Source: Sphingorhabdus lacus (lineage in GTDB: Bacteria > Pseudomonadota > Alphaproteobacteria > Sphingomonadales > Sphingomonadaceae). Taken from it: a stretch of 64,000 nt of DNA. This document shows positions 11,952-30,919 of the stretch, in pieces (position 1 is the first letter of the stretch; each line of letters opens with the position of its first letter). Both the position numbers and the translations under genes were made by a program. A model generated the notes under the pieces. The model did not search any database, had not been told where the DNA came from, and saw nothing but the letters and a program-made list of their open reading frames with translations. The stretch covers positions 2,232,001 to 2,296,000 of the forward strand of contig NZ_CP035733.1 in assembly GCF_009768975.1 (NCBI RefSeq), in the 5' to 3' direction.

Positions 11952-14900
11952 TCATGCCTTGCCATAGCCGCCACCGCCCGGCGTTTCGATGACAAAAACA
12001 TCGCCCGGCTGCATGTCCACAGTCGCCGTTGCGCCCAAGCTTTCAACATGACCATCACTGCGCTCGATACGGTTGATACCCAGCATAGCCGGGCCGCCGC
12101 CCGCCAGTCCGAAGGGAGGAATTTTGCGGCGGTTGGACAAGATGCCTGCCGTCATCGGTTCCAGAAAGCGGATCCGGCGCACGGCACCATCGCCGCCCCT
12201 GTACATCCCCTCGCCGCCCGAATGTGCGCGCACCGAAAATTCTTCGAGCAGTACGGGAAAGCGGGTCTCCAATATTTCGGGGTCGGTCAGGCGGCTGTTG
12301 GTCATATGCGTCTGCACGACCGACGCGCCGTCAAAGCCGGGCCCCGCGCCAGAGCCGCCTGCGATGGTTTCATAATATTGGTATCGGTCGTTGCCGAAGG
12401 TGAAATTGTTCATCGTCCCCTGCGCACCCGCCATCACGCCTAGCGCACCAAACAGGGCATCGGTAATCACCTGACTTGTCTCGACATTGCCCGCGACGAC
12501 CGCAGCGGGATAGCGCGGATGTACCAGCGTTCCTTCCGGCGCAATAATCGTGACCGGTTTCAAACAGCCTTCGTTCATGGGAATGCTGTCGTCGATCAAC
12601 GTGCGGACAACATAGAGGACCGCTGCACGAACGACCGATACCGGAGCGTTGAAATTGCCGTCCAACTGCGCAGTCGTTCCGCTAAAGTCGACGATGGCGG
12701 TTCGGTCTTCCCGGTCGATCCGGATCGCCACCTCGACCACCGCCTCATTGTCCATGGCATAGCGGAAATGCCCGTCGGAAAGGCGCAGGATCAGGCGGCG
12801 CACGGCCTCTTCGGCATGGTCTTGCACATGCTGCATATAGGCCGTCACCACAGCCCGACCATAGTCGCCGCTTATACGCACCAGTTCCGATGCGCCCTTG
12901 GCACAGGCCGCAACTTGCGCTTTCAAATCGGCTACATTTTGCGCGATATTTCGCGATGGCCATGCGCCGGAACCCAGCAGTTGGCGGACATGGTCTTCGA
13001 GGAACTGGCCATTTTCGACAATCAGCATATTGTCGATCAATACCCCTTCTTCCTCCACCGACCGGCTGTTGGGAGGCATGGAACCCGGTGTTATGCCGCC
13101 AATATCCGCATGATGGCCGCGCGCCGCCACAAAATAGGCAGGCACCTCGTCGGCGGGGTCGACGAATACCGGCATGATGACGGTGATGTCAGGCAAATGC
13201 GTTCCGCCATCATAGGGGGCGTTGAGGGCATAAACATCGCCCGCAATAATCCCCCGCCCGTCAAGGCCGCCTGCTCGTCGCTTCAGGATCGTGCGGACAC
13301 TTTCGCCCATTGACCCCAGATGCACGGGCATATGCGGGGCGTTGGCAACCAGATTGCCGCTGGCGTCAAACAGCGCACAGGAGAAATCCAGACGCTCGCG
13401 GATATTGACCGACGACGCACTGTGCTGGAGCGCCGCGCCCATTTCCTCCGCAATGGCCATGAATAGCCCGCCCATGATTTCAAGGCGCACCGGATCGACT
13501 TCGGTGCCGATGGTGCCGGCGGCGGCACGGGGCGTGCTGCGCGTCATCATCAGATTGCCGATGCGATCGACCTCCACTGTCCAGCCCGGTTCGACCACAG
13601 TTGTGGATACGGGGTCGATAATGATTGCCGGACCCTGTGCGGAAAATCCGGCCGCAAGATCGCTCCGGTTGTAAAGCGGCGTGTTGTGCGCGGCACCCGC
13701 CATGAAACAGGATATATGCGCCTGCGGTGGGCCGGACTCCGGTGGCAGGGCAAATGTGAGGCCGGTTTCATCCGGGCTGCGAAAGACCGCTTCTGCGCGG
13801 ATCATCTCGACGACAATCGGCGCGGCGCTGACAAAGCCGAATTGGCGGAAATGGCGGTCCTCAAATGCGGCCTGCATTGCCAGCACGTCGCCATAGGGGA
13901 CTTCGATACTGCTGTCTGTGCCTTCATAGCGGATATGGACGGCTGCCTCGCCCAGGATTTCGCCCTCAACGCCTTGCGCACGCAAATCGGCTTCGGCTTC
14001 GGCGGTCAGTTTCCGGATGCGCGGGGCGAGTGCTTCAGCATCCAGCGGGCCGCCATAGCTTTGCTCCCGGATGGCCCGCCGGTCGGCAAGGCCCATGCCA
14101 TAGGCCGACAATACGCCTGCCAGCGGGTGGATCATGACCTGATCCATGCCCAGTGCATCGGCAACCAGACATGCGTGCTGGCCGCCAGCCCCGCCAAAGC
14201 AGGCCAGCGTATAGCGTGTGACATCATGCCCGCGCTCGACCGAGATTTTCTTGATCGCATTGGCCATGTTGGCCACCGCAATGGTGACAAAGCCTTCCGC
14301 GATTTCTTCCGGGCTTAATTGCTGTCCGGTGGCCGCGGCAATCTCCGCCCCCATCGCTTCCAGCTTGCTGCGGACTGTGGCGGTGTCGAGCGGTAGGTTG
14401 GCATCCGGCCCGAAGATGTGGGGAAAATGGTCCGGAACGATCTTGCCCAGCATGACATTGCAATCCGTCACCGTCAGCGGCCCGCCCCGCCGATAGCAGG
14501 CAGGCCCCGGGATCGCGCCAGCCGAATGCGGACCGACCTGAAAGCGCGCGCCGTCGAAGGTACAAATGGATCCACCCCCTGCGGCAACCGTATGGATGCG
14601 CATCATCGGCGCACGGATGCGTACGCCGGCCACCATCGTCTCGCTTTCGCGTTCATAATGCCCGGCATAGTGCGACACGTCGGTTGACGTGCCCCCCATG
14701 TCAAAGCCGATGATATGCGCAATGTCCGCCTGCGCTGCGGTCTTCGCCATTCCGACAATGCCGCCTGCCGGCCCCGACAGGACCGCGTCCTTGCCCTGAA
14801 ACCGGTCGCTGCTCGCAAGCCCGCCATTGGATTGCATGAACAGGGCCGCGATTTCGCCGCCTGCGTCGGCCTCCAGCTGCCGGACATAATGGCGCAGCAC

Positions 14901-15542
14901 GGGTGACAAATAGGCATCAACCAACGTCGTATCGCCGCGCCCGACCAGCTTGATTAGCGGCGCGACCACATGGCTGACCGAGATATGCGGGAAGCCTATT
15001 TCCGCCGCAATCGCCGCCAGCATTTTTTCATGCGCGGGGTAGCGAAAGGCGTGCATCAAAACGATCGCCAGCGACCGCAGGCCTTCATCATAGGCGGCCT
15101 GCAACGCCGCCCGCGCGCTTTCCACATCAAGCGGTTTCAGCACATCGCCCCGGGCGTCAATCCGTTCGTCAATCTCCACGACTTTGGCGTGCAAAGGCGC
15201 AGGCAGTTCAATCTGGCGCACGAATAATTTGGGCCGTTCCTGATAACCGATCCGCAACGCGTCGCCAAAGCCGCCGGTAATGGCAAGGCAGGTCGGCTCG
15301 CCCTTATGTTCGAGCAGCGCGTTGGTCGCGACCGTCGTGCCGATACGCAATTCCAGCGGCGGCAAGGGGCCTGAAAAAACACCCGTCACCTGACGGATCG
15401 CGGCAATGGCCGCGTCCCGATATTGTTCGGGATTTTCGGAGAGCAATTTGACGGTGGTTATGCTGCCCTCGGGCGAGCGCGCGATAACATCCGTAAAGGT
15501 GCCACCCCGATCAACCCAGAATCGCCAGCTATTTGCATCCAT
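11952..15542 (-). CDS. ATP-dependent 5-oxoprolinase (HyuA-HyuB fusion)
   Basis: A 1196-residue protein, the usual size for OPLAH-type 5-oxoprolinases, which hydrolyse 5-oxoproline to glutamate using ATP. The HyuA half (about 1-680) starts with FWVDRGGTFTDVIARSP and carries GFDMGGTSTDVSHYAG and GGAGGQHACLVADALG. The HyuB half (about 685-1190) carries ERLDFSCALFDASGNLVANAPHMP in parts, HHADIGG and GGGGYGKA at the end. ATG 15542 follows a 115-base gap that must hold the operon promoter. The three following genes (DUF969, DUF979, DUF2891) are tightly packed, which supports a transport-plus-hydrolysis unit. A hydantoinase or acetone-carboxylase-like activity is the alternative, less likely given fusion and neighbours. 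Confidence 0.88.
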   Translation of the reverse strand: MDANSWRFWVDRGGTFTDVIARSPEGSITTVKLLSENPEQYRDAAIAAIRQVTGVFSGPLPPLELRIGTTVATNALLEHKGEPTCLAITGGFGDALRIGYQERPKLFVRQIELPAPLHAKVVEIDERIDARGDVLKPLDVESARAALQAAYDEGLRSLAIVLMHAFRYPAHEKMLAAIAAEIGFPHISVSHVVAPLIKLVGRGDTTLVDAYLSPVLRHYVRQLEADAGGEIAALFMQSNGGLASSDRFQGKDAVLSGPAGGIVGMAKTAAQADIAHIIGFDMGGTSTDVSHYAGHYERESETMVAGVRIRAPMMRIHTVAAGGGSICTFDGARFQVGPHSAGAIPGPACYRRGGPLTVTDCNVMLGKIVPDHFPHIFGPDANLPLDTATVRSKLEAMGAEIAAATGQQLSPEEIAEGFVTIAVANMANAIKKISVERGHDVTRYTLACFGGAGGQHACLVADALGMDQVMIHPLAGVLSAYGMGLADRRAIREQSYGGPLDAEALAPRIRKLTAEAEADLRAQGVEGEILGEAAVHIRYEGTDSSIEVPYGDVLAMQAAFEDRHFRQFGFVSAAPIVVEMIRAEAVFRSPDETGLTFALPPESGPPQAHISCFMAGAAHNTPLYNRSDLAAGFSAQGPAIIIDPVSTTVVEPGWTVEVDRIGNLMMTRSTPRAAAGTIGTEVDPVRLEIMGGLFMAIAEEMGAALQHSASSVNIRERLDFSCALFDASGNLVANAPHMPVHLGSMGESVRTILKRRAGGLDGRGIIAGDVYALNAPYDGGTHLPDITVIMPVFVDPADEVPAYFVAARGHHADIGGITPGSMPPNSRSVEEEGVLIDNMLIVENGQFLEDHVRQLLGSGAWPSRNIAQNVADLKAQVAACAKGASELVRISGDYGRAVVTAYMQHVQDHAEEAVRRLILRLSDGHFRYAMDNEAVVEVAIRIDREDRTAIVDFSGTTAQLDGNFNAPVSVVRAAVLYVVRTLIDDSIPMNEGCLKPVTIIAPEGTLVHPRYPAAVVAGNVETSQVITDALFGALGVMAGAQGTMNNFTFGNDRYQYYETIAGGSGAGPGFDGASVVQTHMTNSRLTDPEILETRFPVLLEEFSVRAHSGGEGMYRGGDGAVRRIRFLEPMTAGILSNRRKIPPFGLAGGGPAMLGINRIERSDGHVESLGATATVDMQPGDVFVIETPGGGGYGKA

Positions 15543-15657: not shown

Positions 15658-16800
15658 TCATGGCCAAAATTGAGCCGATGCTATCTTGGCACCTTCCGCA
15701 AGCGCGGCCATTTTCGCCCAGACCACATTGCGGTCGACGCTGCCGGACCCGACATGGATGCTAAAGCCGCAATCGGCACCGGCCATCACATTATCGCGTC
15801 CGACAAGATGGGCATATCGGGCGATGCGCTGCGCGATAAGTTCCGGATGTTCGATATAGTTCGACTGGCATTCGATCACGCCGGGTATCAGCACTTTTCC
15901 TTCGGGCAATTTGACGTCTTCAAACATTGCATATTCGTGCGCGTGACGCGGATTGGCAGCCTCGAACTGGATTGCGTGCGGACGTGCGCGCCAGACCAGA
16001 TCGATGATATCGCGGAACGGCACGTCGCAGTGATGGGGGCCGGGATAATTGCCCCAGCACATATGCATGCGCAGCTGCTCGGGCGCGATGTTGGCGGTGG
16101 CGCGGTTTAGCGCCTCGATATTCAACGCCATTTTGTCGCGGAAACCGCTCAGGTCCAATTCCCGAAATTGGGTGTGCCGGCCCATAGCCAGATCGGGGCA
16201 GTCGATCTGAAGTATGATGCCATGCGCCGCGATGGCTTCATATTCGTGGCGGAGTCCTTCTGCGAGGGCGAAGACATAATCCTCGTCGCTGTCATAATAA
16301 TCGTTCCGAAAGAACAGCGCGGTGACGCCGGGTGAGGCTGCGCTCATGAACGCGGTTTTCCCTGTATGCTTGCTCAAAGATGCGTTCAGCGCCTGGGCAT
16401 CCCGCGTCACGGCCGTCATGTCTTTGACGGTGATAGGCGCGTTGCAGGCGGGGGTTTTGCGATGCTTGCGGCCGGGGTCGGAAAACACGCGCTCCTTGGT
16501 GGTGGGGAAATCCTCGATATCCTGGAACGCAAAGCTGTTCCCGGTGCCGCCAAAGCCATTGAGGCGATCCTTGATATAGGTGGCGTAGCTCGGCTTGGAC
16601 TGTTCGCCATCATTTATGATATCGAGACCCGCCTCTGCCTGCTTGTCGACAACAAACTGCACCGCTTCCGCGATACGCGCATCAACGGCTTCCATATCGA
16701 GCGGCAGGCCATCTTCCTTGGCAAACATGATCTCGATCAGTTCATCTTCGCGCGGCAAGCTGCCCACATGGGTGGTCAAAAAGCGGTTTGCATGGGCCAT
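15658..16800 (-). CDS. MetE-like cobalamin-independent methyltransferase-family protein
   Basis: A 380-residue protein corresponding to the C-terminal catalytic half of cobalamin-independent methionine synthase. The start TTHVGSLPRE, the zinc-ligand region RMHMCWGNYPG (His and Cys) and the second cysteine in MAGADCGFSI are intact. Such stand-alone members include homocysteine methyltransferase-like enzymes and epoxyalkane:CoM transferase relatives, and many sit in catabolic clusters where they may move methyl or alkyl groups to thiols. It is the last gene of the TonB-receptor operon, one base after the hydrolase stop, so a role in catabolism rather than methionine synthesis is more likely. 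The acceptor is not known. Confidence 0.8.
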   Translation of the reverse strand: MAHANRFLTTHVGSLPREDELIEIMFAKEDGLPLDMEAVDARIAEAVQFVVDKQAEAGLDIINDGEQSKPSYATYIKDRLNGFGGTGNSFAFQDIEDFPTTKERVFSDPGRKHRKTPACNAPITVKDMTAVTRDAQALNASLSKHTGKTAFMSAASPGVTALFFRNDYYDSDEDYVFALAEGLRHEYEAIAAHGIILQIDCPDLAMGRHTQFRELDLSGFRDKMALNIEALNRATANIAPEQLRMHMCWGNYPGPHHCDVPFRDIIDLVWRARPHAIQFEAANPRHAHEYAMFEDVKLPEGKVLIPGVIECQSNYIEHPELIAQRIARYAHLVGRDNVMAGADCGFSIHVGSGSVDRNVVWAKMAALAEGAKIASAQFWP

Positions 16801-16801
16801 A

Positions 16802-17635
16802 TCAGTCTTCCTTGCTGCTGTTATTTTTGAAAAAATCTCGGATCAATGCGTTCACGGTTTCCGGTTGGTCGATGTTGGCAAGATGGCCCGCATCCGGTAC
16901 ATATTGCGTGACACCCTGGGGCGTGTTCTCCCCTATGAATTGCGCCACCTGTTTACGCCATGCACTGTCCTTTTCGCCGGCGAGCGCGAGTGTGGGGACA
17001 GAGAGGGCGTGCAGGTCGGACAGTGACATATCGAGTGCACCCTGATCGACCAACTGGTCACGCCCGTCATAATCGCGCAGAATTTCATCCAGAAGCGCGC
17101 GATTTTCTTCGGTGACCTGAGTCAATGGATGGCGTCGCCACTGGCTGAGCATGTCCGGTAGCTTGCCCGCCCGAACAAGCGCTGACAGTGCGGGGCGGTC
17201 GATTTCGGCGACATTGTCCGTGTCCGGAACCAACCCGTGCAACGGGGCACCGATCAGAATGAGCGCGTTGAGCCTTTCCGGATTTGACCGCGCATAGTCG
17301 AGCGCGACCGAAGCCCCTTGCGACAGCCCGACAAGCGCGAACCTTCCGGCGCCGAAATGATCGGCGATTGCGGTGATATCGTCGCGCTCAGCGGCGAGCA
17401 AAGGGGGTGCGGTCGAACCGCCAAAGCCGCGACGGTCCGGGAAGACAATCTGCATGTCCTGCGCCAGCGCGCTTTGCGGCAGCCAGATGCGCCAGTCGAG
17501 TGTCCAGCCGTGCAGAAACAGCACGACAGGGCCAGAGCCGATGGAACGGACAGGCAGTTTTCCGCCTTCCACATCGATCCAGCGCACGTCGGCGATATCA
17601 TGGTCCGAGCCTTCGCGTTGCACCGAGGGCTCCAC
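16802..17635 (-). CDS. Alpha/beta-fold hydrolase
   Basis: A 277-residue soluble hydrolase. The oxyanion region LFLHGWTLDWRIW, nucleophile elbow GLSQGAS (Ser105) and C-terminal DAGHLANIDQPE (catalytic His) are intact, and an Asp follows LALAGEKDSAW at the usual acid position. It resembles ring-cleavage-product or lactone hydrolases, but the substrate cannot be read. It starts with GTG 17635, eight bases after the VOC stop, and ends just before the MetE-like gene, within one transcript. Confidence 0.85.
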   Translation of the reverse strand: MEPSVQREGSDHDIADVRWIDVEGGKLPVRSIGSGPVVLFLHGWTLDWRIWLPQSALAQDMQIVFPDRRGFGGSTAPPLLAAERDDITAIADHFGAGRFALVGLSQGASVALDYARSNPERLNALILIGAPLHGLVPDTDNVAEIDRPALSALVRAGKLPDMLSQWRRHPLTQVTEENRALLDEILRDYDGRDQLVDQGALDMSLSDLHALSVPTLALAGEKDSAWRKQVAQFIGENTPQGVTQYVPDAGHLANIDQPETVNALIRDFFKNNSSKED

Positions 17636-17642
17636 TATGTGC

Positions 17643-18188
17643 TTAAGCGTGCAATGCCCGGAACGGGTTATTGTTGCTATGGTTACCCGCCAACCAACGG
17701 CTCAGTTCGGAGCGTGCTTCGGCCCGGCGCTGGGCATCCAGCGGCGCTGCTTCCGGCGCGTCATATGTGAACTCCAGAATCATGTTATTGGGGTCTTTCA
17801 CATAGACTGACCGGCAATAGCCATGCTCGAGGATGTAGGTGTCGGGTTCCACAAAACCGGCGGCAGCAATCCTGCGCTCCAGTTCGGCCTGCCCTTTTTC
17901 ATCCACCTGCAGCGCAATATGAATGAACGGCGATTCCGGAATTTCCGGGCCAAATTCAGCCTGATCTTCAGGGTCGGCAAATTGGAAAAACGCCAGCGCA
18001 CTGCCGTCCGCCAGTTCGAAAAAGCAATGGCAATAGGTGCGCTCCTTGCCGAACAGCTCGTCCTTCTCGCAATAGGTCGCCATCAACGGGAAGCCCAGAA
18101 CATCCTCGTAGAACGCCCGTGTCGCTTCCAGATCCTTGGTGACATAAGCCGTATGATGCAGCCTTTTGGCGAGAATTTCGCTGTTCAT
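17643..18188 (-). CDS. VOC-family metalloprotein (glyoxalase/extradiol dioxygenase fold)
   Basis: A 181-residue single-domain VOC protein with the metal-ligand pattern expected: RLHHTAYVTKDLEATRAFYEDVLG at the start (His), SPFIHIALQVD (His) and NNMILEFTYD (Glu). That H-H-E set fits one-domain glyoxalase-I-like isomerases or extradiol-type dioxygenases. ATG 18188 is preferred over ATG 18203 because GAGGACAG lies at ribosome-binding distance from the former. Its place between WrbA and an alpha/beta hydrolase suggests an aromatic or quinone-derived substrate; this is inference. Confidence 0.8.
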   Translation of the reverse strand: MNSEILAKRLHHTAYVTKDLEATRAFYEDVLGFPLMATYCEKDELFGKERTYCHCFFELADGSALAFFQFADPEDQAEFGPEIPESPFIHIALQVDEKGQAELERRIAAAGFVEPDTYILEHGYCRSVYVKDPNNMILEFTYDAPEAAPLDAQRRAEARSELSRWLAGNHSNNNPFRALHA

Positions 18189-18230
18189 TCTATCTGTCCT
18201 CATCTCTCAAATTAGAATCACATGGAAAGA

Positions 18231-18833
18231 CTATGCTATCAGTTTTCCGGCGATCTCGGCAACATGGCGCCCTTGGAAACGCGCGCCAGCAAGCTCATTC
18301 TCGCTTGGCATCCGGCTCCCGTCGGCGCCCGCCAAAGTTGTGGCGCCATAGGGGGTCCCACCGCTGATTTCTCCCATCTCGCTATTGCCCTTAAACGTAT
18401 AGGGCAATCCGACGATGACCATGCCGTGATGCAACAAGCTAGTGTGGAAAGACGTTATGGTCGTTTCCTGACCACCATGCTGGCTCGCCGTCGAACAGAA
18501 CACGCTTCCGACTTTACCGACCAACGCATTTGCAAACCAAAGCCCGCCGGTCTGATCAAGGAAGTTCCGCATCTGTGCAGCCATATTTCCGAACCGCGTC
18601 GGTGTTCCAAAAATGATCGCGTCATAATTGGCGAGTTCGTCTGGTGTGGCGATCGGGGCGGCCTGGTCCACCTTGATATGGGCAGCGGCCGCAACCTCTT
18701 CGGGAACCAGTTCCGGAACACGCTTGACGTCAACCGTACAGCCCGACACCGACCTTGCCCCATCGGCAACCGCTTCGGCCATTGCTTCGATATGACCGTA
18801 GCTGGAATAATATAGAACAAGGACCTTCGTCAT
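18231..18833 (-). CDS. wrbA: NAD(P)H:quinone oxidoreductase WrbA
   Basis: A 200-residue flavodoxin-fold protein of typical WrbA length. FMN-binding motifs are in place: [12 protein letters not shown] phosphate loop, GTPTRFGNM and the [10 protein letters not shown] loop followed by GMVIVGLPY. WrbA reduces quinones by two electrons, avoiding semiquinone radicals. It is the second gene of the TonB-receptor operon (nine-base gap), so quinone or hydroquinone intermediates of the pathway served by this locus are plausible. Confidence 0.92.
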
Positions 18834-18842
18834 TTTGAACCC

Positions 18843-21038
18843 TTAGAATTTGTAGGATGCTTCGAGACCGTAAATCCGCGGCCGCGCTTTGAAAACGAAA
18901 CCGCCTGGCGAGAATTCGGCGTTGTATTTCTCGTTAAACAGGTTGCTTGCGAAAGCCGCCACAGACCAACTGTCGCTGTTCACGCCCACCCGCGCATCCA
19001 CCAGATCGACCGGTGCGCGCACGGTTGTGTTGAAGGGCTCCCACCATGTTTTCCCGGTGCGTCGATAGTCAACGCGGAACAGCCCTTTCAAGCCGGCGCC
19101 AAGCTCGGGCGTGAATTGCGCACCCAGATTATAGGTGTATCGCGAAATCAGTGGCGCTTCATTCCCGATTGCAACGGGATCCGGAAATTCCTTGATTTCA
19201 CTCCACGTATATCCGGCGGCCGCGTTCAACTGGATATCCGGTGTCGGCCGCAATGTCGCTTCCAGTTCGAAACCCTGAATGCGTGTTTTGGGGACATTCC
19301 CCAGATTCTGGGTCGAGTTGGCGGCAAGGAACACAAAGAAATAGCTGTTACGCGACAAGGTCGAATATGCCGCAGCGTTCAAAGTCAGCTTGCGATCAAG
19401 CAGACGTGTTTTGATCCCCGCTTCAAATGTCGTTGCGGTTTCATCTTTGAAAATGTCCGAAACGCCGACGATGCCATTGCTGCTCGCCACGCCACCGACG
19501 CCCGTCTGGTTGAAGCCGCCCGAGCGGAAGCCACGGCTGTATCCGCCGTACAATGTGATATCATCGGTCGGCTGATAGGTAAGCGTGACTTTCGGTTGCA
19601 GGTCGTCGAAGGTTGCACGCCGTTTCTCACCTGTTGCGCCCTGCGGAAAGCCAGGGACATTTGGCAGGAATGCCGTCGGTGTCAGCGTGGTGTTCACCCG
19701 CTTGTCACGGTCATAGCGCAACGACGCATCGACGCGGAACTGATCGGAAAATTCATATCCCAGATTGGCAAATACGGCCCAGGCAAAATTGTTCTGGCTG
19801 TCGGCCAGAAATGTCGACTGCGGGCTTGCGGGATTGGTCGATGGCGTCCGGAAAACCGGGAATACACCTTGTTGGAAATCGAGCAGATTGCCCGTCGAAA
19901 TATAGCGTGCCGTATCGATATAATATCCGCCGAACATCCAGAAGAGTTTCTCGTTTTTCGGGGACTCGATCCGGATTTCCTGGCTGACAGCCTTCACATT
20001 CAGATATTGGCTCTGAGCAAGATCGAACGGCAGGCCAAAAACAGCGACCAGAAGGGATTCGTTGAACGGTAGGAAGTTGAAGGCATCGCCCGTGAGGATT
20101 TCCTTCACGGTGTCATATGAGGTGATCGACGTCGCCGTGAAGCCTTCGCCTTCATAGGCAAACTTTGCGGCCACATTCAGGATGTCGCGGTTGTTGATAC
20201 CGCGGTTATTGACCCGGATCGGAAGGCTGGTGTCGTTCACATCATTGACGATGTTGAAATAGAGCGCCTGTGTTTCCAGTCGGGCATAAGATGCGCGCAG
20301 ATCGGCGGTCCAGCCATTGCCGGGTTCAAACAACAAATTCCCGCGGACCGACAGGTCTTTTACCGGGTCGGCATCCTCGTTCAGAAATGTATTGCGAAGA
20401 TATCCGTCCGTATCCCGGTAGGAGCCCGACAGACGGAATTTTACGGTGTCGGACAAGGGTCCGCTGATCCCTGCGCGGACATTCCAGCCGAACCCGTTGT
20501 CGATGCCGGCCTTGAAACTGCCGGTCAAGGTATCGGTTGGTTTCTGGCTAGTGATGATGATCGCACCGCCAATGGCGTTACGACCATAAAGACCACCCTG
20601 CGGGCCTTTGAGGACCTCGATTTGGGCGATATCGACCAATTCTTGGTTGAAGGCCGCAGGATTTACCTGCTGAACCCCATCAATGACGACTGCGACCGAG
20701 GGCTCACTATTGCGGGCTTGGGTGATGCCGCGAATGATGATGAAGGCGTTACCCGAATTCTGGGTTTCGACCAGATTGACGTTGGACGTGAGATTTATGA
20801 AATCGAGAGGCTTTTCAATGCCTGCATTTTCGATCGTTTCCGAATTGAACGCGGTTACCGCGGCCGGAACATCCTGAAGATTCTGGTCACGGCGCAAGGC
20901 GCTGACAACAATTTCCTGGGTGTCTTGATCGGCTGCTTCAGATGCTTCTTGAGCATGAACGATGCTGGGGACGAGCGCGGTGCTGCCCAATAAAGTAACC
21001 AAGGCCGCAGAAGCCCACTTCGCAGACTGAAATGCCAT
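18843..21038 (-). CDS. TonB-dependent outer-membrane receptor
   Basis: A 731-residue receptor with a signal peptide (ending IVHAQE), a TonB-box-like DTQEIVVSALRRDQ, a plug domain (residues ~45-160: QDVPAAVTAF, IIIRGITQARN, VLKGPQGGLYGRNAIGGAI in parts) and a 22-strand barrel ending in the canonical C-terminal aromatic (YGLEASYKF). The type resembles sphingomonad receptors for plant or aromatic compounds rather than siderophores, although this cannot be settled by eye. ATG 21038 has GGGAGATGGAGA before it. It heads the operon wrbA-VOC-hydrolase-MetE-like, and its promoter carries the paired TTCG-N5-CGAA operator described separately. Confidence 0.92.
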   Translation of the reverse strand: MAFQSAKWASAALVTLLGSTALVPSIVHAQEASEAADQDTQEIVVSALRRDQNLQDVPAAVTAFNSETIENAGIEKPLDFINLTSNVNLVETQNSGNAFIIIRGITQARNSEPSVAVVIDGVQQVNPAAFNQELVDIAQIEVLKGPQGGLYGRNAIGGAIIITSQKPTDTLTGSFKAGIDNGFGWNVRAGISGPLSDTVKFRLSGSYRDTDGYLRNTFLNEDADPVKDLSVRGNLLFEPGNGWTADLRASYARLETQALYFNIVNDVNDTSLPIRVNNRGINNRDILNVAAKFAYEGEGFTATSITSYDTVKEILTGDAFNFLPFNESLLVAVFGLPFDLAQSQYLNVKAVSQEIRIESPKNEKLFWMFGGYYIDTARYISTGNLLDFQQGVFPVFRTPSTNPASPQSTFLADSQNNFAWAVFANLGYEFSDQFRVDASLRYDRDKRVNTTLTPTAFLPNVPGFPQGATGEKRRATFDDLQPKVTLTYQPTDDITLYGGYSRGFRSGGFNQTGVGGVASSNGIVGVSDIFKDETATTFEAGIKTRLLDRKLTLNAAAYSTLSRNSYFFVFLAANSTQNLGNVPKTRIQGFELEATLRPTPDIQLNAAAGYTWSEIKEFPDPVAIGNEAPLISRYTYNLGAQFTPELGAGLKGLFRVDYRRTGKTWWEPFNTTVRAPVDLVDARVGVNSDSWSVAAFASNLFNEKYNAEFSPGGFVFKARPRIYGLEASYKF

Positions 21039-21092
21039 TCTCCATCTCCCGTACCGTTTCAAACGCTTTCTATCACCGAAGCGTATCACGGT

Positions 21093-21121
21093 GTTCTAAT
21101 TCGTTCGAATGTCGAAGTCAA
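21093..21121 (-). promoter_or_regulatory. Predicted sigma-70 promoter of the TonB-receptor operon
   Basis: On the minus strand TTGACT (21116-21121) and TAGAAC (21093-21098) are separated by 17 bases, about 55 bases ahead of the receptor start. The -35 hexamer lies in the linker between two TTCG-N5-CGAA boxes, the same geometry as at the CoA-transferase promoter. Confidence 0.6.
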
Positions 21122-21135
21122 GTTCGATATGCGAA
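21104..21135. promoter_or_regulatory. Predicted IclR operator, copy 1 (paired TTCG-N5-CGAA)
   Basis: Two inverted-repeat boxes, TTCGAATGTCGAA (21104-21116) and TTCGATATGCGAA (21123-21135), separated by six bases, flank the -35 box of the receptor promoter. An almost identical arrangement lies at 23138-23169. The IclR gene lies between the two copies, and IclR proteins bind as tetramers to paired half-palindromes, so it is the obvious ligand-responsive regulator. Confidence 0.75.
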
Positions 21136-21139
21136 GTTT

Positions 21140-21952
21140 TTAAGAGGAGGTTTCCCGTTGCAATGCATGGGCCAGCGACGGCCATCGGCGAAGCGCAGCC
21201 TCGATTTCCGCAGCCGCCTCCCGCAAGAGAGGAAGCCGCGATGTGATCAGATCATCTTGGGAGATTCGCGTTGTCGAGGTCGAGCAGTTCACAGCAGCGA
21301 TCGGTCGGCGCGACGCGTCGAACACGGGCACGGCTACCGATACAATGCCGAAATCCAGTTCATCAAAGGCCGAGTCATAGCCCCTGCTCCGCACCAATTG
21401 GAGCCGTTCGCGCATTGCCTTTTCGGACGTCACAGTATGCTCGGTGAATTTTTCAAAAGGTGCAGCGGCAAGATATTCTTCGATCTCCGCCTCAGGCAGA
21501 AATGCCAAAATGGTTTTCCCCATCGACGTTGCATGAGCCGGAAAACGCGTCCCCACATTGACGCCCAACCGGATCCGCCGGTTTGTGGACACATGCGCGA
21601 GATAAAGGACGTCCTTGCCGGCGATCGAGGCCATCGACGCGCTGTCGCCCGTTTCATCGCGCAGCGACTGGAGCGGCGGTACGCAGACATGTTCGAGATG
21701 CATGGATGAATGGAAAGCCGATCCAAATGCCAGAACTTCGGGTTTCAGCAAAAAATTGCGATCATGCTGGGCCACATAGCCCAGGGCAACCAAGGTATTG
21801 AGGCATCGCCGCGCTACCGCCGGGCTCAATCCGGTCACGGCCGCAACTTCGCTCAGTCGCATCTCGGGATGCTGGTCATCAAAGGCCCGCAAGACCGAAA
21901 GACCGCGCTCAAGTGTCGAAAGATACTCCGGGTCTTTCTCGGGTTTTGCCAC
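21140..21952 (-). CDS. IclR-family transcriptional regulator
   Basis: A 270-residue regulator: winged helix-turn-helix at about residues 10-72 (LERGLSVLRAF, LSEVAAVTGLSPAVARRCLNTL in parts, YVAQHDRNFLLKPEVL) and an effector domain from about 85 with GKDVLYLAHV, HATSMGKTILAFL and RGYDSAFDELDFGIVSVAVPV. The type is closest to PcaR/PobR-like activators of aromatic catabolism. Its GTG start (21950-21952) overlaps the TAG of the CoA-transferase by one base, so it is translated from the CoA-transferase transcript and would control its own synthesis through the operator at 23138-23169. Confidence 0.9.
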   Translation of the reverse strand: MAKPEKDPEYLSTLERGLSVLRAFDDQHPEMRLSEVAAVTGLSPAVARRCLNTLVALGYVAQHDRNFLLKPEVLAFGSAFHSSMHLEHVCVPPLQSLRDETGDSASMASIAGKDVLYLAHVSTNRRIRLGVNVGTRFPAHATSMGKTILAFLPEAEIEEYLAAAPFEKFTEHTVTSEKAMRERLQLVRSRGYDSAFDELDFGIVSVAVPVFDASRRPIAAVNCSTSTTRISQDDLITSRLPLLREAAAEIEAALRRWPSLAHALQRETSS

Positions 21953-23103
21953 TATTCTAGCCTTTCTAACTTCCTTCTCAGCGGGGCAACCAGCTCTTCG
22001 TCGTTCGCCCCAAGCACCGGAGGTGCGGTAACATCCAGAGCACGTTGCCCATCGAAAGTCACGGGGGATCTAATGGTTTTGAAGACGCCATGCGGTCCAT
22101 TTGCGTCCTCTATGCACAGCTGCAGCGCTTTCGCCTGCTCGGATTCAATCGCTTCCTCGGACGTGTTGACGGGGGCGTGCGGAACTTCAAGATTCCGCAA
22201 TAAGTCACACCATTGCTGACGCGTGCGTGTCTTGAAAATGGGCGCCAGGAAATCGATGACCTTTTCGTAATTCGCAATCCGTGCCTCGCGACTTTCAAAC
22301 ATGTCCAGTTGCAACATGTCGGGCTGATCGACCGCAGTAGCCAGATTTTCCCAAAATTTGGGGGGCGATGACATGTGCAGGGCAATCCACAATGTGTCGG
22401 CGCATTCGAACACATAGGATTGCGAGACGTGCGGGCGGCTATACGGCCCCATTATCTGGTCATCTGCGAAATAATGGGTGAAATCGTCGAGATTGAAATG
22501 CGCCATGGCTTCGAACATTGACGTTTCGACCAGCCGGCCTTGTCCGGTCCGCTCCCGTTCGTAAAGCGCCGCAAGCACTCCATAGGCGGCATAGAATCCG
22601 GTTGTGGCATCCGCCAGTGCGGGACCGACAACACGGCGATGAATGGGATTGACCAGAAGACGTAAAAACCCGCTGACTGCCTGCGCGACGGTATCGAATG
22701 CGGGACGATCGCGATCAGGGCCGTCATTCCCGAAGCCCGAGATTGAAGCGTAAATCAATTTCGGATTGAGCGCCCGAAGGCGGGACGCCGACACCCCGAT
22801 CTTGTCGGCAACGCCAGGCCGAAAATTCTGGATGAAGACATCGGCTTCCAGGAGCATTTGATCAAACACGGCAAGGTCTTCCGGCTTGCGCGTATCTAGA
22901 GTAATGCTCTTTTTGTTGCGGTTGTAGGTTTGAAAGTGCGGACTATAAAGACCACCGCGAAATGCACGGAACGGGTCGCCAACCTTGGGCTGCTCGATCT
23001 TTATGACGTTTGCACCCAAATCTGCTAGCAGCATGCCTGCCGCCGGACCGGTTATGAATGTACCCATCTCCAATACGGTCACGTTGCTGAGCGGCTTGGC
23101 CAT
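21952..23103 (-). CDS. Family III CoA-transferase (CaiB/BaiF type)
   Basis: A 383-residue enzyme of the formyl-CoA transferase family. It begins with the CoA-binding LEMGTFITGPAAGMLLADLGA segment, continues with NRNKKSITLD and NFRPGVADKIGV, and retains the catalytic aspartate in PALADATTG (Asp165). These enzymes move CoA between carboxylic acids via aspartyl anhydrides. Divergently transcribed from the citryl-CoA-lyase-like gene, it would activate a carboxylic acid that the lyase then splits, as in citramalate or itaconate-type pathways; the real substrate is unknown. Confidence 0.9.
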   Translation of the reverse strand: MAKPLSNVTVLEMGTFITGPAAGMLLADLGANVIKIEQPKVGDPFRAFRGGLYSPHFQTYNRNKKSITLDTRKPEDLAVFDQMLLEADVFIQNFRPGVADKIGVSASRLRALNPKLIYASISGFGNDGPDRDRPAFDTVAQAVSGFLRLLVNPIHRRVVGPALADATTGFYAAYGVLAALYERERTGQGRLVETSMFEAMAHFNLDDFTHYFADDQIMGPYSRPHVSQSYVFECADTLWIALHMSSPPKFWENLATAVDQPDMLQLDMFESREARIANYEKVIDFLAPIFKTRTRQQWCDLLRNLEVPHAPVNTSEEAIESEQAKALQLCIEDANGPHGVFKTIRSPVTFDGQRALDVTAPPVLGANDEELVAPLRRKLERLE

Positions 23104-23118
23104 GTTTTCTCTCCAGAC

Positions 23119-23147
23119 TTGACTCTACCCTATAAAATTCGAATAAC
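23119..23147 (+). promoter_or_regulatory. Possible plus-strand promoter of the citryl-CoA-lyase-like gene
   Basis: TTGACT (23119-23124) and AATAAC (23142-23147) are spaced by 17 bases. The -10 is weak. It overlaps the paired operator at 23138-23169, so binding there would affect both directions. Confidence 0.35.
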
Positions 23148-23155
23148 GAAATCAA
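23127..23155 (-). promoter_or_regulatory. Predicted sigma-70 promoter of the CoA-transferase/IclR transcript
   Basis: On the minus strand TTGATT (23150-23155) and TAGGGT (23127-23132) are 17 bases apart. The offsets between the two hexamers and the two TTCG-N5-CGAA boxes are base-for-base the same as at 21093-21135, which supports both promoter and operator calls. Confidence 0.55.
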
Positions 23156-23169
23156 CTTCGAAATACGAA
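23138..23169. promoter_or_regulatory. Predicted IclR operator, copy 2 (paired TTCG-N5-CGAA)
   Basis: Boxes TTCGAATAACGAA (23138-23150) and TTCGAAATACGAA (23157-23169) with a six-base linker lie in the 80-base divergent region between the CoA-transferase and the citryl-CoA-lyase-like gene. The spacing equals copy 1 at 21104-21135. Confidence 0.75.
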
Positions 23170-23183
23170 ATATGGAGGCCATT

Positions 23184-23960
23184 ATGCGAATTGGCAAACA
23201 AGACGAGCCTTTTACATCGATTTGCACTTCCGATGCCGACAGCATCACCGTGCGCGGTCTTGATCTGTGCGAGGACATTATCGGCAAGATCGATTTCACA
23301 AGTTATTTCTGGATGCTCGTCACGGGCACCTTGCCCACACCAAAGCAGTTATTTTTCTGCAACGCGGTGCTGGCCGCCATTGCAGAGCATGGTTTGGTCC
23401 CCAGTGTCGCGGCATCGCGCATGACCTATGCCGCCGCACCGGAAGCTTTCCACGGCGCTGTCGCCGCGGGTCTATTAGGTTGCGGCAGTGTGGTTCTGGG
23501 AAGCGCGGAAGTGGCTGGCCGATTTTATGCAAGCTGCGTTGCACAGGCCAATGAACCCGGCGCGAATGCCGCAGAAATTGCCAAGGAAAATATTCTTGCA
23601 CTGAGAGCCGACAAAAAAGCGATCCCCGGCTTCGGACATCCCCAGCACTCCGGTGGTGACCCGCGCGCCAACCTGCTTTTGCGTCTTGCAGAGGAACATA
23701 ATATTGTCGGCAAGAATATCGAAATGCTGTATACGATCCGCGACATCCTTCCCGAAACCTTGGGTCGCGCGCTTCCGATCAATGTGAATGGCGCTATTCC
23801 GGCAGTCATGCTGGATGTCGGTTTTCCACTCAGCGCATTGAAGGGCATCTCACTTTTAGCACGCACCGCGAGTATCATTGCCCATCTGCAGGAAGAGACC
23901 GAAAGACCCATCGGCTTCATCATGTCGGGTGCAGCCGCGGATAAAATTCAATTCGTATAA
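23184..23960 (+). CDS. Citryl-CoA-lyase-like protein (citrate synthase fold)
   Basis: A 258-residue member of the citrate synthase superfamily of the short, citryl-CoA-lyase-like type. It has the DSITVRGLDLCEDIIGKIDF start, the substrate-loop HGAVAAGLLGCGS and the catalytic-histidine region IPGFGHPQHSGGDPRAN, ending in RPIGFIMSGAAADKI. Such proteins cleave or form citrate-like CoA thioesters. ATG 23184 is chosen because GGAGG (23174-23178) lies five bases upstream; the ATG at 23172 overlaps that site. It is divergent from the CoA-transferase, with the shared IclR operator between. The true acyl substrate is not known. Confidence 0.8.
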   Translation: MRIGKQDEPFTSICTSDADSITVRGLDLCEDIIGKIDFTSYFWMLVTGTLPTPKQLFFCNAVLAAIAEHGLVPSVAASRMTYAAAPEAFHGAVAAGLLGCGSVVLGSAEVAGRFYASCVAQANEPGANAAEIAKENILALRADKKAIPGFGHPQHSGGDPRANLLLRLAEEHNIVGKNIEMLYTIRDILPETLGRALPINVNGAIPAVMLDVGFPLSALKGISLLARTASIIAHLQEETERPIGFIMSGAAADKIQFV

Positions 23961-26961: not shown

Positions 26962-27282
26962 ATGACCGAAACGCATCTGGTTACCGCCAAACTCTGGCTC
27001 TGGCAAAGCGACAAGGCCCCGGCGAGCTGGCATTTCCTCACGATTGAAGGCGAAGCGGCTGAGGCAATTCATGCCCTTGCCTTGATGCGGCGGCTCGAAA
27101 ACGGACGGCGGCGCGGCTGGGGGGCGATGAAGGTGCACGTCACCATCGGGGAGACGGCCTGGGATACATCCATATTCCCCGACAAGGGCAGCGGAGGCTG
27201 GCTGCTTCCGGTCAAGGCGGCAGTGCGCAAAGCGGAGGAATTGGTCGTCGGCGACCAGATTCAGGTTAGCGTGACGCTTTAA
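26962..27282 (+). CDS. DUF1905 domain protein
   Basis: A 106-residue beta-barrel-like protein of the DUF1905 family (LVTAKLWLWQSDKAPASWHFLTI, WGAMKVHVTIGETAWDTSIFPDKG in parts, YLLPVKAAVRKAE-like end). No enzymatic residues are known for the family. AAAAGAGG precedes ATG 26962. It converges with fliA, the two stop codons overlapping at 27279-27282. Confidence 0.85.
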   Translation: MTETHLVTAKLWLWQSDKAPASWHFLTIEGEAAEAIHALALMRRLENGRRRGWGAMKVHVTIGETAWDTSIFPDKGSGGWLLPVKAAVRKAEELVVGDQIQVSVTL

Positions 27283-27992
27283 TCCGCCATTAACATCCGC
27301 ATCTTGTCGAGTGCGGCTTTCTTGATCTGGCAGACCCGCGCAGCACCAACGCCCAGTGTCTCGCCGATTTCGTCCAGATTTAACTCTTCGACAAAATAAA
27401 GCTGCAAGATCATGGCTTCCCGCTCGGATAACTTGGCGAGATTTGCCACCAATGCCTCACGCAACTGGGCCTTTTCCAACGCTGTATCGGCACTATCCGC
27501 GAGATCCGCGAACCACATATCATGATCCGAATAGCTTTCATCGATCGATTCCTGGCCCACGGCCTGCGTGGACGCGGCCATGGCATAATAGGCTTGTGGC
27601 TCCAGCCCGGCGGCATCCGCCATTTCCGCATCGGTCGGCGGACGCATATATTCCTGTTCCAGGCGCGCGCGAATGCTCGCCAGATAGCGGCGGTTGGCCA
27701 TGCCTGCGCGGCCCATGCGGGCGTCACGACGAAGTGCATCCACCATGGCTCCGCGAATACGGGTCGACGCATAGGGGGCGAAGGCAATGCCGCGATCTTC
27801 GAAATGCTGGGCGGCCTCCACCAGTGCGATGAAGCCGATCTGGATCAGGTCTTCAACCTCGATGGCGGTCGACATGCGGCTGTGCACATGCCAGGCGACG
27901 CGGCGGACAAGGGCACTATGTGCTTCTATCAGGCGCGCAGGGCTCGACGCATCGGGACGGGCATAAGCGGCGCGGGCTTCATTCAGCATCAT
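27279..27992 (-). CDS. fliA: Flagellar sigma factor FliA (sigma-28)
   Basis: A 237-residue sigma-70-family factor of the FliA group: region 2 (ALVRRVAWHVHSRM, EVEDLIQIGFIALVEAAQHFE, FAPYASTRIRGAMVDALRR), region 3 (RRYLASIRARLEQE) and region 4 (LSEREAMILQLYFVEELNLDEIGETLGVGAARVCQIKKAAL in parts). It should direct transcription of late flagellar genes such as the flgM promoter at 31566-31592. ATG 27992 is preceded by AAGGAGA and lies inside the end of flhA, so the two genes are translationally coupled. An ATG at 28016 is too far from this ribosome binding site. Confidence 0.93.
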   Translation of the reverse strand: MMLNEARAAYARPDASSPARLIEAHSALVRRVAWHVHSRMSTAIEVEDLIQIGFIALVEAAQHFEDRGIAFAPYASTRIRGAMVDALRRDARMGRAGMANRRYLASIRARLEQEYMRPPTDAEMADAAGLEPQAYYAMAASTQAVGQESIDESYSDHDMWFADLADSADTALEKAQLREALVANLAKLSEREAMILQLYFVEELNLDEIGETLGVGAARVCQIKKAALDKMRMLMAD

Positions 27993-30093
27993 GGTCTCCT
28001 TTGTAAGGGTTGGCATCGGCCAGGCGCGGTGTGCCGCCGACTACGGCGATCACATCGACTTTTTTGGTTTCGGGAATTTCGAGGAAGGACAGCACAGCGA
28101 CATCGCTGAACTGCGCCCGTAAAAGGCGGGCGACCGCCGCGCGGCATAGCGGCGAGGTGATGACGGCAAAGCTGCGTGCGGCGACCAGCATCGGCTGGAC
28201 TGCTTCATCAACGGCGCTGATGATGCGGCGGGCAAGCGCAGGTTCGAACGGCCAGTTGGCTGACGGTGCGGTTTGCACCGACTGGACCAGCAGGCTTTCG
28301 AGATCGCCATCAAAGGTGATAGCCGGCAGCGGCATTTTCACAGGAACGATAGTCTGGACAATGAGCGGTCCGAGGCGCTGGCGGACAGCCTCTACCAGAT
28401 CGGATGCATCCAGATTGCGCGGGGCAAGATCAACCATAGCCTCGGCCACACGGCGGAAATCCCGAAGCGGAACCCGCTCGGCCAGCAGCGCGCGGCACAA
28501 GGCGGTAATCGCGGCGAGCGAATAAGGTGCCGGTGTCAGGCCAGCGGCCAGTTGCGGGTAGCTTTCCTTGAGATTGTCGATCAGCGCTTGCGCATCGTCC
28601 ATACCGAACAGCTCGGCTGCAGATGCGGTGGCGAGCTGGTTCAAATGAGTGGCGATAACGGTCGCGGGGTCGACAACGGTGTAGCCGGCGGCGACGGCAT
28701 CGATACGGTCACGCTCGGCGATCCAGAGGGCATCCAGGCCAAAGCTGGGGTCCTTGACCGCACGGCCAGTGACACCTTCAAGGCAATCGCCGGAATCAAG
28801 GGCGAGCAATTCGTTGGCCCAGGCGCTATCTTCGCCGACCAGAACACCCGAAATGCGGATCTGGTAGCTATTCCCGGGCAGGGAAAGGTCATCTGTGACC
28901 TTAACCATGGGCACGACGAAGCCGAATTCGCGCGAAAGCTGGCGGCGGATGGCCGTGACACGGCCCATTAACGGCGCGCCCTTGCGTTCATCGACAAGGC
29001 TAACCAATGAATAGCCAAGCTCCAGCGTGATGGGGGCTGTTTCGGCAATTTCGTGCCACTCGATCACATGGCCGGGTGTCGCGTCGACGATGGTGTCGAC
29101 CGGCTTGGGAGGAGCCTTCTCCGAACGGCGCAGCAACCACCAGATGGATCCCGCTACCGCGGCTGCTGGCAGCACGACGAGTTGGGGCATTGCCGGAACC
29201 ATTCCGAGCAAAGTCAGAATTGCGGCAACAGGGCCCCAGGCGCGGGCATGCCCGAACTGTGTCGAAATCTGGCCCGAAAGGTCGAGCGGCGATGACACGC
29301 GGGTGACGATGGCCGCTGCGGCAATGGAAAGCAGCAGAGCCGGGACTTGCGCAACCAGTGCGTCGCCAATGGCAAGCTTGATGTATATCTCGGCCGCATC
29401 GCCAAAGCTGAGGTCGTGGCTGACCACACCCAATATCAGGCCGCCAAAAATATTGACGAAAAGGATGAGAAGGCCCGCGACCGCGTCGCCCTTCACAAAT
29501 TTGGAGGCACCATCCATGGAGCCGTAAAAGTCGGCTTCGGTCGCGACTTCCTGACGCCGCGCTTTGGCTTCGTCGGGTGTGACGAGGCCGGCGTTCAGAT
29601 CGGCATCAATCGCCATCTGCTTTCCGGGAAGTGCATCAAGTGTGAAGCGTGCGGACACTTCGGATACGCGCCCGGCACCCTTGGTAATCACGACCATGTT
29701 GATGATCATCAACACGGCAAAGACGAACAGGCCGACGATATAGTCGCCGCCAATCAATATTGCCCCGAACGCTTCGATGACATGGCCTGCAGCCGCAACG
29801 CCGGTATGGCCGTCGACGAGAACGACACGGGTTGAGGCCACGTTCAGGGCAAGCCGGAACAATGTCGCGAGCAGCAGAACTGTCGGAAACGCGGAGAAGT
29901 CGAGGGGTTTGGCCACGTTCATGGCGACCATCAGGACAGCCAGACTGATCATGATGTTCAGAATGAAGCCGACATCCAGCAGCATCGCCGGGATCGGCAC
30001 GATCATCAGCATGACCAGCAGCAAAACCGCAACGGGCAACGCCCCGCTTTTTATGGTTTCCAGCCAGATGGTGAGGTTGAGGCGGCCGATCAT
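27979..30093 (-). CDS. flhA: Flagellar type III export protein FlhA
   Basis: A 704-residue export-gate protein of normal length. The N-terminal ~330 residues hold about eight transmembrane helices with the conserved FHIPEP-type region (FPTVLLLATLFRLALNVASTRVVL in parts, GDAVAGLLILFVNIFGG, AIGDALVAQVPALLLSIAAA), and the C-terminal ~350 residues form the cytoplasmic ring domain (LSREFGFVVPMVKV, LREALPQL-type helices). It overlaps the transglycosylase stop by four bases and carries fliA in its 3' end, giving the operon transglycosylase-flhA-fliA. Confidence 0.96.
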   Translation of the reverse strand: MIGRLNLTIWLETIKSGALPVAVLLLVMLMIVPIPAMLLDVGFILNIMISLAVLMVAMNVAKPLDFSAFPTVLLLATLFRLALNVASTRVVLVDGHTGVAAAGHVIEAFGAILIGGDYIVGLFVFAVLMIINMVVITKGAGRVSEVSARFTLDALPGKQMAIDADLNAGLVTPDEAKARRQEVATEADFYGSMDGASKFVKGDAVAGLLILFVNIFGGLILGVVSHDLSFGDAAEIYIKLAIGDALVAQVPALLLSIAAAAIVTRVSSPLDLSGQISTQFGHARAWGPVAAILTLLGMVPAMPQLVVLPAAAVAGSIWWLLRRSEKAPPKPVDTIVDATPGHVIEWHEIAETAPITLELGYSLVSLVDERKGAPLMGRVTAIRRQLSREFGFVVPMVKVTDDLSLPGNSYQIRISGVLVGEDSAWANELLALDSGDCLEGVTGRAVKDPSFGLDALWIAERDRIDAVAAGYTVVDPATVIATHLNQLATASAAELFGMDDAQALIDNLKESYPQLAAGLTPAPYSLAAITALCRALLAERVPLRDFRRVAEAMVDLAPRNLDASDLVEAVRQRLGPLIVQTIVPVKMPLPAITFDGDLESLLVQSVQTAPSANWPFEPALARRIISAVDEAVQPMLVAARSFAVITSPLCRAAVARLLRAQFSDVAVLSFLEIPETKKVDVIAVVGGTPRLADANPYKGDHDAE

Positions 30094-30872
30094 GACGAAA
30101 TACCCGAGAGGCGGCGATAGGCATCGCGCGCAAAATTAAGATCAAGCTTTTTGGGCATGGGCAGCATTGTGGCCATTTCGAGTGGCGTGCGTGCCGCATT
30201 GGATGAGGACGCTATCTGGCTGCTTTGCCGGTTCAGCGCAGGAAACTGGCTTTGTGCGTCGCCCAGCTTGGCGGCGAAATTCTCACGGATTTCTGCGAGG
30301 CTTCGTGCGCCGCCGTCATTCCGGTAAAATATGGGGCGATTGGCCCGCGCGGCTTCGGAAAAGAGCGGTGCAGCGCTTTGGTTGGGATCTTCGCGATAAG
30401 CATCGAGAAACTTGGCGGCCCCTTCGGCGCCGAGAAAATGCGCGAGATAGAGATCGACAGGCTCAGGATTGGCACCGATCCGTTCTTGCAGATAGGCGCC
30501 ATTGTCCGCCGCAAATTCGGCAGCCATCGCTGCTGCCGCATCGGGATCGCTGCGCAGGTCAAGTATCGCGGCCCTTTTGGCGGAATCGGAGACCGAAAAG
30601 GTTCCGTCCGAATTGCGCGAAATGGCATTGGCGGCCCATTCCATTCCATGCGACGCACCATGTTCTTTCACGGTGCCCAGCCAGGTCTGCTTGGTGAATT
30701 GATAGAGGCCAGTCGCGCTCGACGTCGTGGCGCGCGCATCGGGGCGCATTCCGCTTTCGATGCGGGCCTGATCCATCAAATAGTCGAAATCGACACCGGT
30801 TCGTGCCGATGCGCGGGCAATTGCCGCCGTCACCTTATGCGGTGATCCCGTGTCGTTAATCGGGCGTGTCAT
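30090..30872 (-). CDS. Lytic transglycosylase (SLT domain), flagellar-operon member
   Basis: A 260-residue protein with a family 1 SLT domain near the N-terminus: YLMDQARIESGMRPDA (catalytic Glu), TGLYQFTKQTWL and DLYLAHFLGAEGAAKFL. It likely opens peptidoglycan for flagellar rod or export assembly, as SLT proteins encoded with flagellar genes do. No signal peptide is visible, which suggests export through the flagellar apparatus or another route. ATG 30872 is chosen: the sigma-54 promoter at 30904-30919 would start RNA near 30893, so a longer TTG start at 30908 would lie ahead of the transcript. Confidence 0.85.
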   Translation of the reverse strand: MTRPINDTGSPHKVTAAIARASARTGVDFDYLMDQARIESGMRPDARATTSSATGLYQFTKQTWLGTVKEHGASHGMEWAANAISRNSDGTFSVSDSAKRAAILDLRSDPDAAAAMAAEFAADNGAYLQERIGANPEPVDLYLAHFLGAEGAAKFLDAYREDPNQSAAPLFSEAARANRPIFYRNDGGARSLAEIRENFAAKLGDAQSQFPALNRQSSQIASSSNAARTPLEMATMLPMPKKLDLNFARDAYRRLSGISS

Positions 30873-30903
30873 ATTCTGGTCCGGTTGTTCATGCGGGATG
30901 AAC

Positions 30904-30919
30904 TGCAATGCCCGTGCCA
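30904..30919 (-). promoter_or_regulatory. Predicted sigma-54 (RpoN) promoter of transglycosylase-flhA-fliA
   Basis: On the minus strand TGGCACGGGCATTGCA reads as a full -24/-12 element (TGGCACG-N4-TTGCA), with the GG and GC dinucleotides at the required spacing, about 30 bases ahead of the ATG at 30872. It needs an enhancer-binding activator such as FleQ/FlrC/FlbD, which is not encoded in this window. Confidence 0.85.

Follow-up and report, generated by a model that had tools for sequence, protein, structure and literature searches.

Group-1 operators of the IclR family have the consensus core TYCR-N5-YGRA with an A/T centre (Suvorova and Gelfand 2021, PMC8222616), and the parts of that survey available to us report tandem palindromes, with centres 18–22 nt apart, in 94 IclR orthologous groups. 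PheR, an IclR protein of Sphingobium sp. SHPJ-2, protects a wide region of 44 bp, for which cooperativity is considered possible in the available passages of its description (PMC13273656). The locus described here carries candidate operators of the group-1 kind. Its box, TTCG-N5-CGAA, fits the consensus core and has an AT-rich centre, the centres of its paired boxes are 19 nt apart, within the 18–22 nt range, and the predicted self- and neighbour regulation resembles that of the group-1 systems in the same parts of the survey (PMC8222616). This means that both the operator core and the tandem spacing had already been described for the family. Unlike in group 1 as presented there, the flank letters and the Y/R at box positions 5 and 9 are inconsistently kept. 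Because the outer flank positions of the boxes differ from site to site, assignment to a flank subgroup (e.g. WTT-11-AAW) was dropped.

The locus lies in a stretch of 64,000 nucleotides from the Sphingorhabdus lacus genome, the whole of which is termed the window. Its features, in window coordinates, are the following.

15658–16800, minus strand: MetE-like protein, probable P1 operon
16802–17635, minus strand: alpha/beta hydrolase, probable P1 operon
17643–18203, minus strand: VOC/glyoxalase-fold protein, probable P1 operon
18231–18833, minus strand: WrbA quinone oxidoreductase, probable P1 operon
18843–21038, minus strand: TonB-dependent receptor, 731 aa from the ATG used, with Pfam Plug and TonB_dep_Rec barrel; first gene after P1
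21093–21121, minus strand: predicted promoter P1, with -35 TTGACT (21121–21116), 17-base spacer containing one box, and -10 TAGAAC (21098–21093)
21104–21135, minus strand: operator pair 1, TTCG-N5-CGAA/N6/TTCG-N5-CGAA, seen in the sequence and also at TonB receptor genes in relatives
21140–21952, minus strand: IclR-family regulator, 270 aa, HTH_IclR (4.3e-16) and IclR_C (4.4e-41); proposed binder of both pairs
21952–23103, minus strand: class III (CaiB/BaiF) CoA-transferase, CoA_transf_3 (3.2e-101); first gene after P2, followed by iclR
23127–23155, minus strand: predicted promoter P2, with -35 TTGATT (23155–23150), 17-base spacer containing one box, and -10 TAGGGT (23132–23127)
23138–23169, minus strand: operator pair 2, located between the divergent CoA-transferase and lyase genes and conserved in relatives
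23184–23960, plus strand: citryl-CoA-lyase-like protein with a citrate synthase C-terminal domain (NF004868, 296.4 bits against a cut-off of 193)

A preliminary description of this DNA had proposed two paired TTCG-N5-CGAA operators with the same 6-base linker and an IclR gene between them. Both points are exact in the sequence. All four boxes (21104–21116, 21123–21135, 23138–23150 and 23157–23169) match without a mismatch, the two pairs have identical spacing (6-base linker, 19 bases from start to start), and iclR, with its HTH_IclR and IclR_C domains, occupies 21140–21952. The linkers differ, being GTCAAG in pair 1 and ATCAAC in pair 2; the former is the seat of the -35 of the TonB-receptor promoter and the latter that of P2. 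The position of -35 and -10 relative to the boxes, also proposed earlier, holds in plus-strand coordinates, although the promoters themselves are both read from the minus strand. The preliminary description mentioned neither this strand nor the link of P1 to the TonB receptor, nor that the divergent lyase gene adjoins pair 2.

Downstream of P1 come the TonB-receptor gene, starting 66 bases from operator 1, and then the genes for WrbA, the VOC protein, the hydrolase and the MetE-like protein. These four (15658–18833) are probably the remainder of the P1 operon, judging from gaps and gene order, and they recur near operators in relatives. P2 faces the CoA-transferase gene, which starts 35 bases from operator 2, and iclR, so that the regulator would govern its own expression. 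The lyase gene diverges from the CoA-transferase gene and starts 15 bases from operator 2; its start at 23184 is favoured over 23172 because GGAGG precedes it. Together, 15658–23960 form a conserved catabolic module of TonB receptor, WrbA, VOC, alpha/beta hydrolase, MetE-like, class III CoA-transferase and citryl-CoA-lyase-like genes. Directly downstream of the MetE-like gene, 11952–15542 encodes a hydantoinase A/B-type fusion protein of 1196 aa, after which come DUF969, DUF979 and DUF2891 genes; this stretch contains no TTCG-N5-CGAA box. On the other side, an FHIPEP-family export gene adjoins a sigma-70-type sigma factor gene (27279–30908), and these are probably flagellar neighbours.

The regulator scores above the Pfam cut-offs for HTH_IclR and IclR_C and is therefore an IclR-family protein. 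Its best family-model match is TIGR02431 (pcaR_pcaU), at 251.8 bits and below the cut-off of 284.75, so that it is called PcaR-like rather than a member of the subfamily. Relatives with solved structures include the Pca-regulon regulator 8eju. Among NCBIfam models of the beta-ketoadipate (pca) pathway, no cut-off is reached by any protein of the cluster; the best NCBIfam match of the alpha/beta hydrolase is PcaD, at 90.5 bits against a cut-off of 255.85. Solved-structure searches with the lyase, MetE-like and VOC proteins indicated no pathway, and the open-access literature searched yielded no paper on the gene set of the module, most subscription papers being outside its scope.

How unusual such paired boxes are can be judged from their frequency. 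Single boxes occur at about 34 per Mb in matched random sequence, which would favour the view that these palindromes arose by chance in AT-rich promoter DNA. In the window, six single boxes are found where 2.16 are expected, and 3 of 100 shuffles have at least six; single boxes are thus mildly enriched, and the signal is in the pairing. Markov sequence of order 3, modelled on the window and 30 Mb long, contains no exact copy of the 32-base pattern. A scan of the genome, proposed as a check in the preliminary description, returned just two exact copies in 3.46 Mb, both at promoters of this one cluster, and no one-mismatch copies (the reversed pattern has a single match when one mismatch is allowed). 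At a tolerance of three mismatches, there are 22 matches compared to 30 for the reversed-pattern control, a chance level, so that only the exact copies stand out. Of the earlier argument that four independent repeats would be improbable by chance, the rarity stands; the independence does not, since the four boxes are members of one system.

Conservation points the same way. Among 396 Sphingomonadales genomes, 36 contain the exact pattern and one contains its reverse. Given this conservation, the uniqueness within the genome and the zero count in random sequence, a chance origin was rejected and has next to no probability left.

A site model, R1, was built from 50 of 52 distinct sites, all of them from other genera; the two left out were a site identical to window site 1 and an overlapping one-mismatch copy, and the set contained no site from the genus of the window itself (the window and L145). 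Applied to the genome, R1 recovers both full sites, at 33.8 bits for operator 2 and 29.5 bits for operator 1, the next match being a partial one of 14.1 bits among the 150 of 2244 candidates scored. While the box core was fixed by selection, as sites were collected with at most one core mismatch, the three central box positions were not selected for and are A/T in 88–100% of the 52 distinct sites. Close box pairs stand at offset 19 in 70 of 70 cases (163 boxes, 40 sequences), though most of these loci were themselves found through the 19-base spacing, and the neighbouring sites are the fairer test.

The distribution of the pattern follows that of the regulator. IclR matches at E 1e-45 are present in 44 of the 396 genomes, 35 at 56–100% identity and nine at 34–43%. 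Exact pattern and close iclR orthologue occur together in 33 genomes, that is, in 33 of the 35 orthologue holders; the other two (G085 and G294) each have two one-mismatch copies at regulon genes. Without a close orthologue, 358 of 361 genomes also have no exact pattern. These genomes are kin, and the co-occurrence counts are uncorrected for relatedness. In a search with up to one mismatch over 99 genomes, which include the window's own and overlap the set of 396, matches were found in 15. An iclR orthologue (at least 56% identity) is present in ten of them, and these ten are all the orthologue holders of this set (nine with exact sites, G085 with its two one-mismatch copies); the other five have a single one-mismatch match and no orthologue. 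The reversed control matched in 10 of the 99 genomes, so one-mismatch matches alone mean little. Five more genomes with an IclR protein at 30–40% identity had no match with up to one mismatch in this search.

It might be supposed that the pairs bind a regulator encoded elsewhere and that iclR is a bystander. Three of the 36 exact-pattern genomes have no close orthologue, and in one of them, G116, the IclR protein is only 43% identical. That IclR gene, however, is situated among the G116 sites, and the other two genomes (G303 and G338) share one GC-rich sequence at which R1, scanned over 34 loci (L108–L128, L145–L151 and L025–L030), reports no match. No close homologue of a regulon gene lies near it; the nearest regulon-like gene at the G338 site is a 31% identical CoA-transferase.

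Genomes that have the enzymes without the regulator serve as a control. The lyase is found at 61–100% identity in 42 of the 396 genomes, 35 of which hold the iclR orthologue. The remaining seven are G116, with its more distant IclR protein, and six (G058, G102, G155, G178, G211 and G371) that keep the divergent CoA-transferase/lyase pair, with lyases of 67–71% identity, and have no iclR orthologue. The exact pattern is absent genome-wide from all six, and nothing in their 20-kb loci matches even when three mismatches are allowed; G058 has one one-mismatch match, on a contig other than that of the enzyme locus. This indicates that the operator follows the regulator and not the enzymes. The pattern thus tracks the orthologue across the order, its core matches the IclR group-1 consensus, and in G411, where iclR has its own contig, all three regulon contigs carry a pair. 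A regulator encoded elsewhere is accordingly judged improbable, chiefly because sites are absent where the enzymes stand without the orthologue. The earlier proposal that the operator is tied to the local IclR protein is thereby supported (33 of 35 orthologue holders with the exact pattern, none of six enzyme-only genomes), and the boxes are present at the orthologous genes of related sphingomonads, where their absence had been named as the outcome that would count against it.

At the six enzyme-only loci (L184–L189), five have a VOC gene and four a MetE-like gene of 61–62% identity. P450, GMC-oxidoreductase and amine-oxidase-type genes are among the neighbours in genomes without iclR, and these neighbours indicated no pathway. 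A second MetE-like gene (24–26% identity) stands beside the first or within the module at L115, L117, L130–L132, L137 and L184–L186.

Where the cluster is split or rearranged, its units retain a site. In G411, the regulon genes are spread over three contigs with one pair on each, iclR being on a contig separate from those of the CoA-transferase and TonB genes. G333 has three exact sites and one with one mismatch, located beside the TonB gene, in the CoA-transferase/lyase gap, before the VOC gene and before the MetE-like gene, and G095 and G124 have three sites each. Outside the order, a Niveispirillum plasmid (Rhodospirillales) encodes a regulator of 68% identity and carries exact pairs both between the CoA-transferase and lyase genes and upstream of the TonB gene. 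In the wider class, the exact pattern was found in 4 of 385 genomes, compared to 1 of the 385 with the reversed control. The four are the window's genome, G101, G613, both of whose sites are identical to the Niveispirillum sites, and G447, in which the pair precedes a gene that by eye resembles one for a transporter binding protein; the 2.7 kb examined there contain no regulon gene.

On Aminobacter plasmid pUSP2, an exact pair (L151 7931–7962) lies directly upstream of an iclR gene whose product is 43% identical. The lyase there is 48% identical, the CoA-transferase 46% and the MetE-like protein 28%, the last being annotated as URO-D family. On two Cupriavidus plasmids, whose IclR proteins are 48–50% identical, no pair was found in the surrounding 10 kb or so, even with two mismatches allowed; the operator code thus changes within the family. 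On one of them, Cupriavidus necator pBB2, a three-mismatch match (L150 14118–14149) stands beside the lyase gene, and its first half is a TGCG-N5-CGCA palindrome; this is perhaps the diverged operator of the 48% identical IclR protein.

By its position, the stretch PAVxRRCLxTL is presumably the recognition helix. It is found in the aligned orthologues, with the exception of G085 (AAVVRRCLNTL), and among the distant IclR proteins it is kept in G116 (PAVARRCL) and reads PATARRAL in Cupriavidus and PAAARRSL in Aminobacter. Since the helix is changed in Aminobacter, which has the pair, as it is in Cupriavidus, which has no close pair, no simple code relates helix to operator.

The promoter geometry recurs along with the boxes. 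A strict scan for the E. coli-type sigma-70 consensus reported neither P1 nor P2, because their -10 hexamers are poor, and the -10 positions proposed here rest on conservation across sites. For this comparison, sites were oriented by the best match of the linker to TTGACA, which biases the -35 frequency and leaves the -10, not used in orienting, as the fair test. Strand-tied sites were skipped, leaving 75, or 72 (73 on the opposite strand) once repeats of the same downstream stretch are removed. TA occurs 17 bases past the linker -35 in 52 of these 72 distinct sites, closely related genomes included, in 15 of 72 at spacer 15, and in at most 7 of 72 at the other tabulated spacers; on the opposite strand it occurs in at most 7 of 73 at any tabulated spacer.

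The promoters are also consistently directed. In the CoA-transferase/lyase gaps, the linker promoter aims into the CoA-transferase gene in 34 of 35 cases, and 29 of 31 sites beside TonB genes aim into the TonB gene, the exceptions being a one-mismatch copy that points away and an overlapping copy that is tied. In this survey of 80 sites, seven lacked a mapped gene start within range to either side, and five, tied in linker score, were counted as minus strand. Elsewhere, the site beside the VOC gene in G095 and G124 has its TTG strand directed away from VOC, and in G408 and G411 the linker of some sites contains no clear -35. Terminator-like sites in the scan were no commoner than in shuffles (18 vs 19.6).

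These observations can be brought together in a model. The pairs are, with good probability, tandem operators of a PcaR/PcaU-like, autoregulated IclR protein that most likely holds uptake and catabolic genes repressed in the absence of an inducer. Each 13-base box would take one IclR dimer, and two dimers 19 bases apart, about two helical turns, would sit on the same face of the DNA. Such a pair of dimers would clamp the -35 in the linker, with one box filling most of the spacer between -35 and -10. In the inducer-free state, polymerase would most likely be kept off the five genes behind P1, from TonB receptor to MetE-like; the CoA-transferase and iclR genes would be blocked as well, amounting to autoregulation, and so would the divergent lyase gene, given its start 15 bases from operator 2. 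A compound of the presumably shared catabolic pathway would act as inducer and free or re-set the IclR protein.

It is also possible, if less likely, that the IclR protein is an activator or a dual regulator which, bound to its ligand at the -35, aids polymerase at promoters with a poor -10. The weak -10 hexamers would suit this, the best family-model match is to PcaR/PcaU/PobR, and the IclR family contains repressors, activators and dual regulators, some of them for aromatic catabolism. However, the -35 hexamers (TTGACT and TTGATT) are good and the spacer is 17 bases, the -35 sits between the boxes and not downstream of them, and both the box in the spacer and the distance of 15 bases from operator 2 to the lyase start suit occlusion. 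The confidence placed in the two readings overlaps, because both assume the same operator, and repression is clearly preferred to activation.

Slightly more likely than not is a further reading, in which box, -35 linker, spacer box and a -10 at 17 bases make up a fixed operator–promoter cassette of an uncharacterised IclR protein, and each scattered unit of the pathway acquired or kept a copy. If so, the cassette could be used as a tag for finding the whole pathway in alphaproteobacteria. The seven gene types of the module are grouped into one likely regulon, which gives a handle on a catabolic pathway, and sphingomonads gain a clean, testable candidate pair of regulator and operator. The operator type is already known, and the arrangement would be a well-supported, if ordinary, kind of gene switch.

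Among the described systems, the operators of PcaU (Acinetobacter) and PcaR (Pseudomonas putida) are also close, and on the protein side the highest-scoring family model is the PcaR/PcaU/PobR one, TIGR02431. Table 1 of PMC8222616 prints a PcaU motif that includes TTCGATWATCGMA, which equals the 13-base box found here except that one base of the core is degenerate; the PcaU site is described there as consisting of a palindrome plus an extra direct half-site, whereas two full palindromes are found here. A search of the open-access literature for IclR regulons in sphingomonads listed PheR and, besides it, papers whose titles give no hint of this system. According to the available passages of its description (PMC13273656), PheR is likewise a sphingomonad IclR repressor that joins catabolic genes with TonB-dependent uptake. 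Its TonB genes changed in RNA-seq, and those passages mention no operator on them. Unlike the operators of the window, PheR has the core motif GCAACG and a footprint from -21 to +23, which does not lie over the -35 (PMC13273656, same passages).
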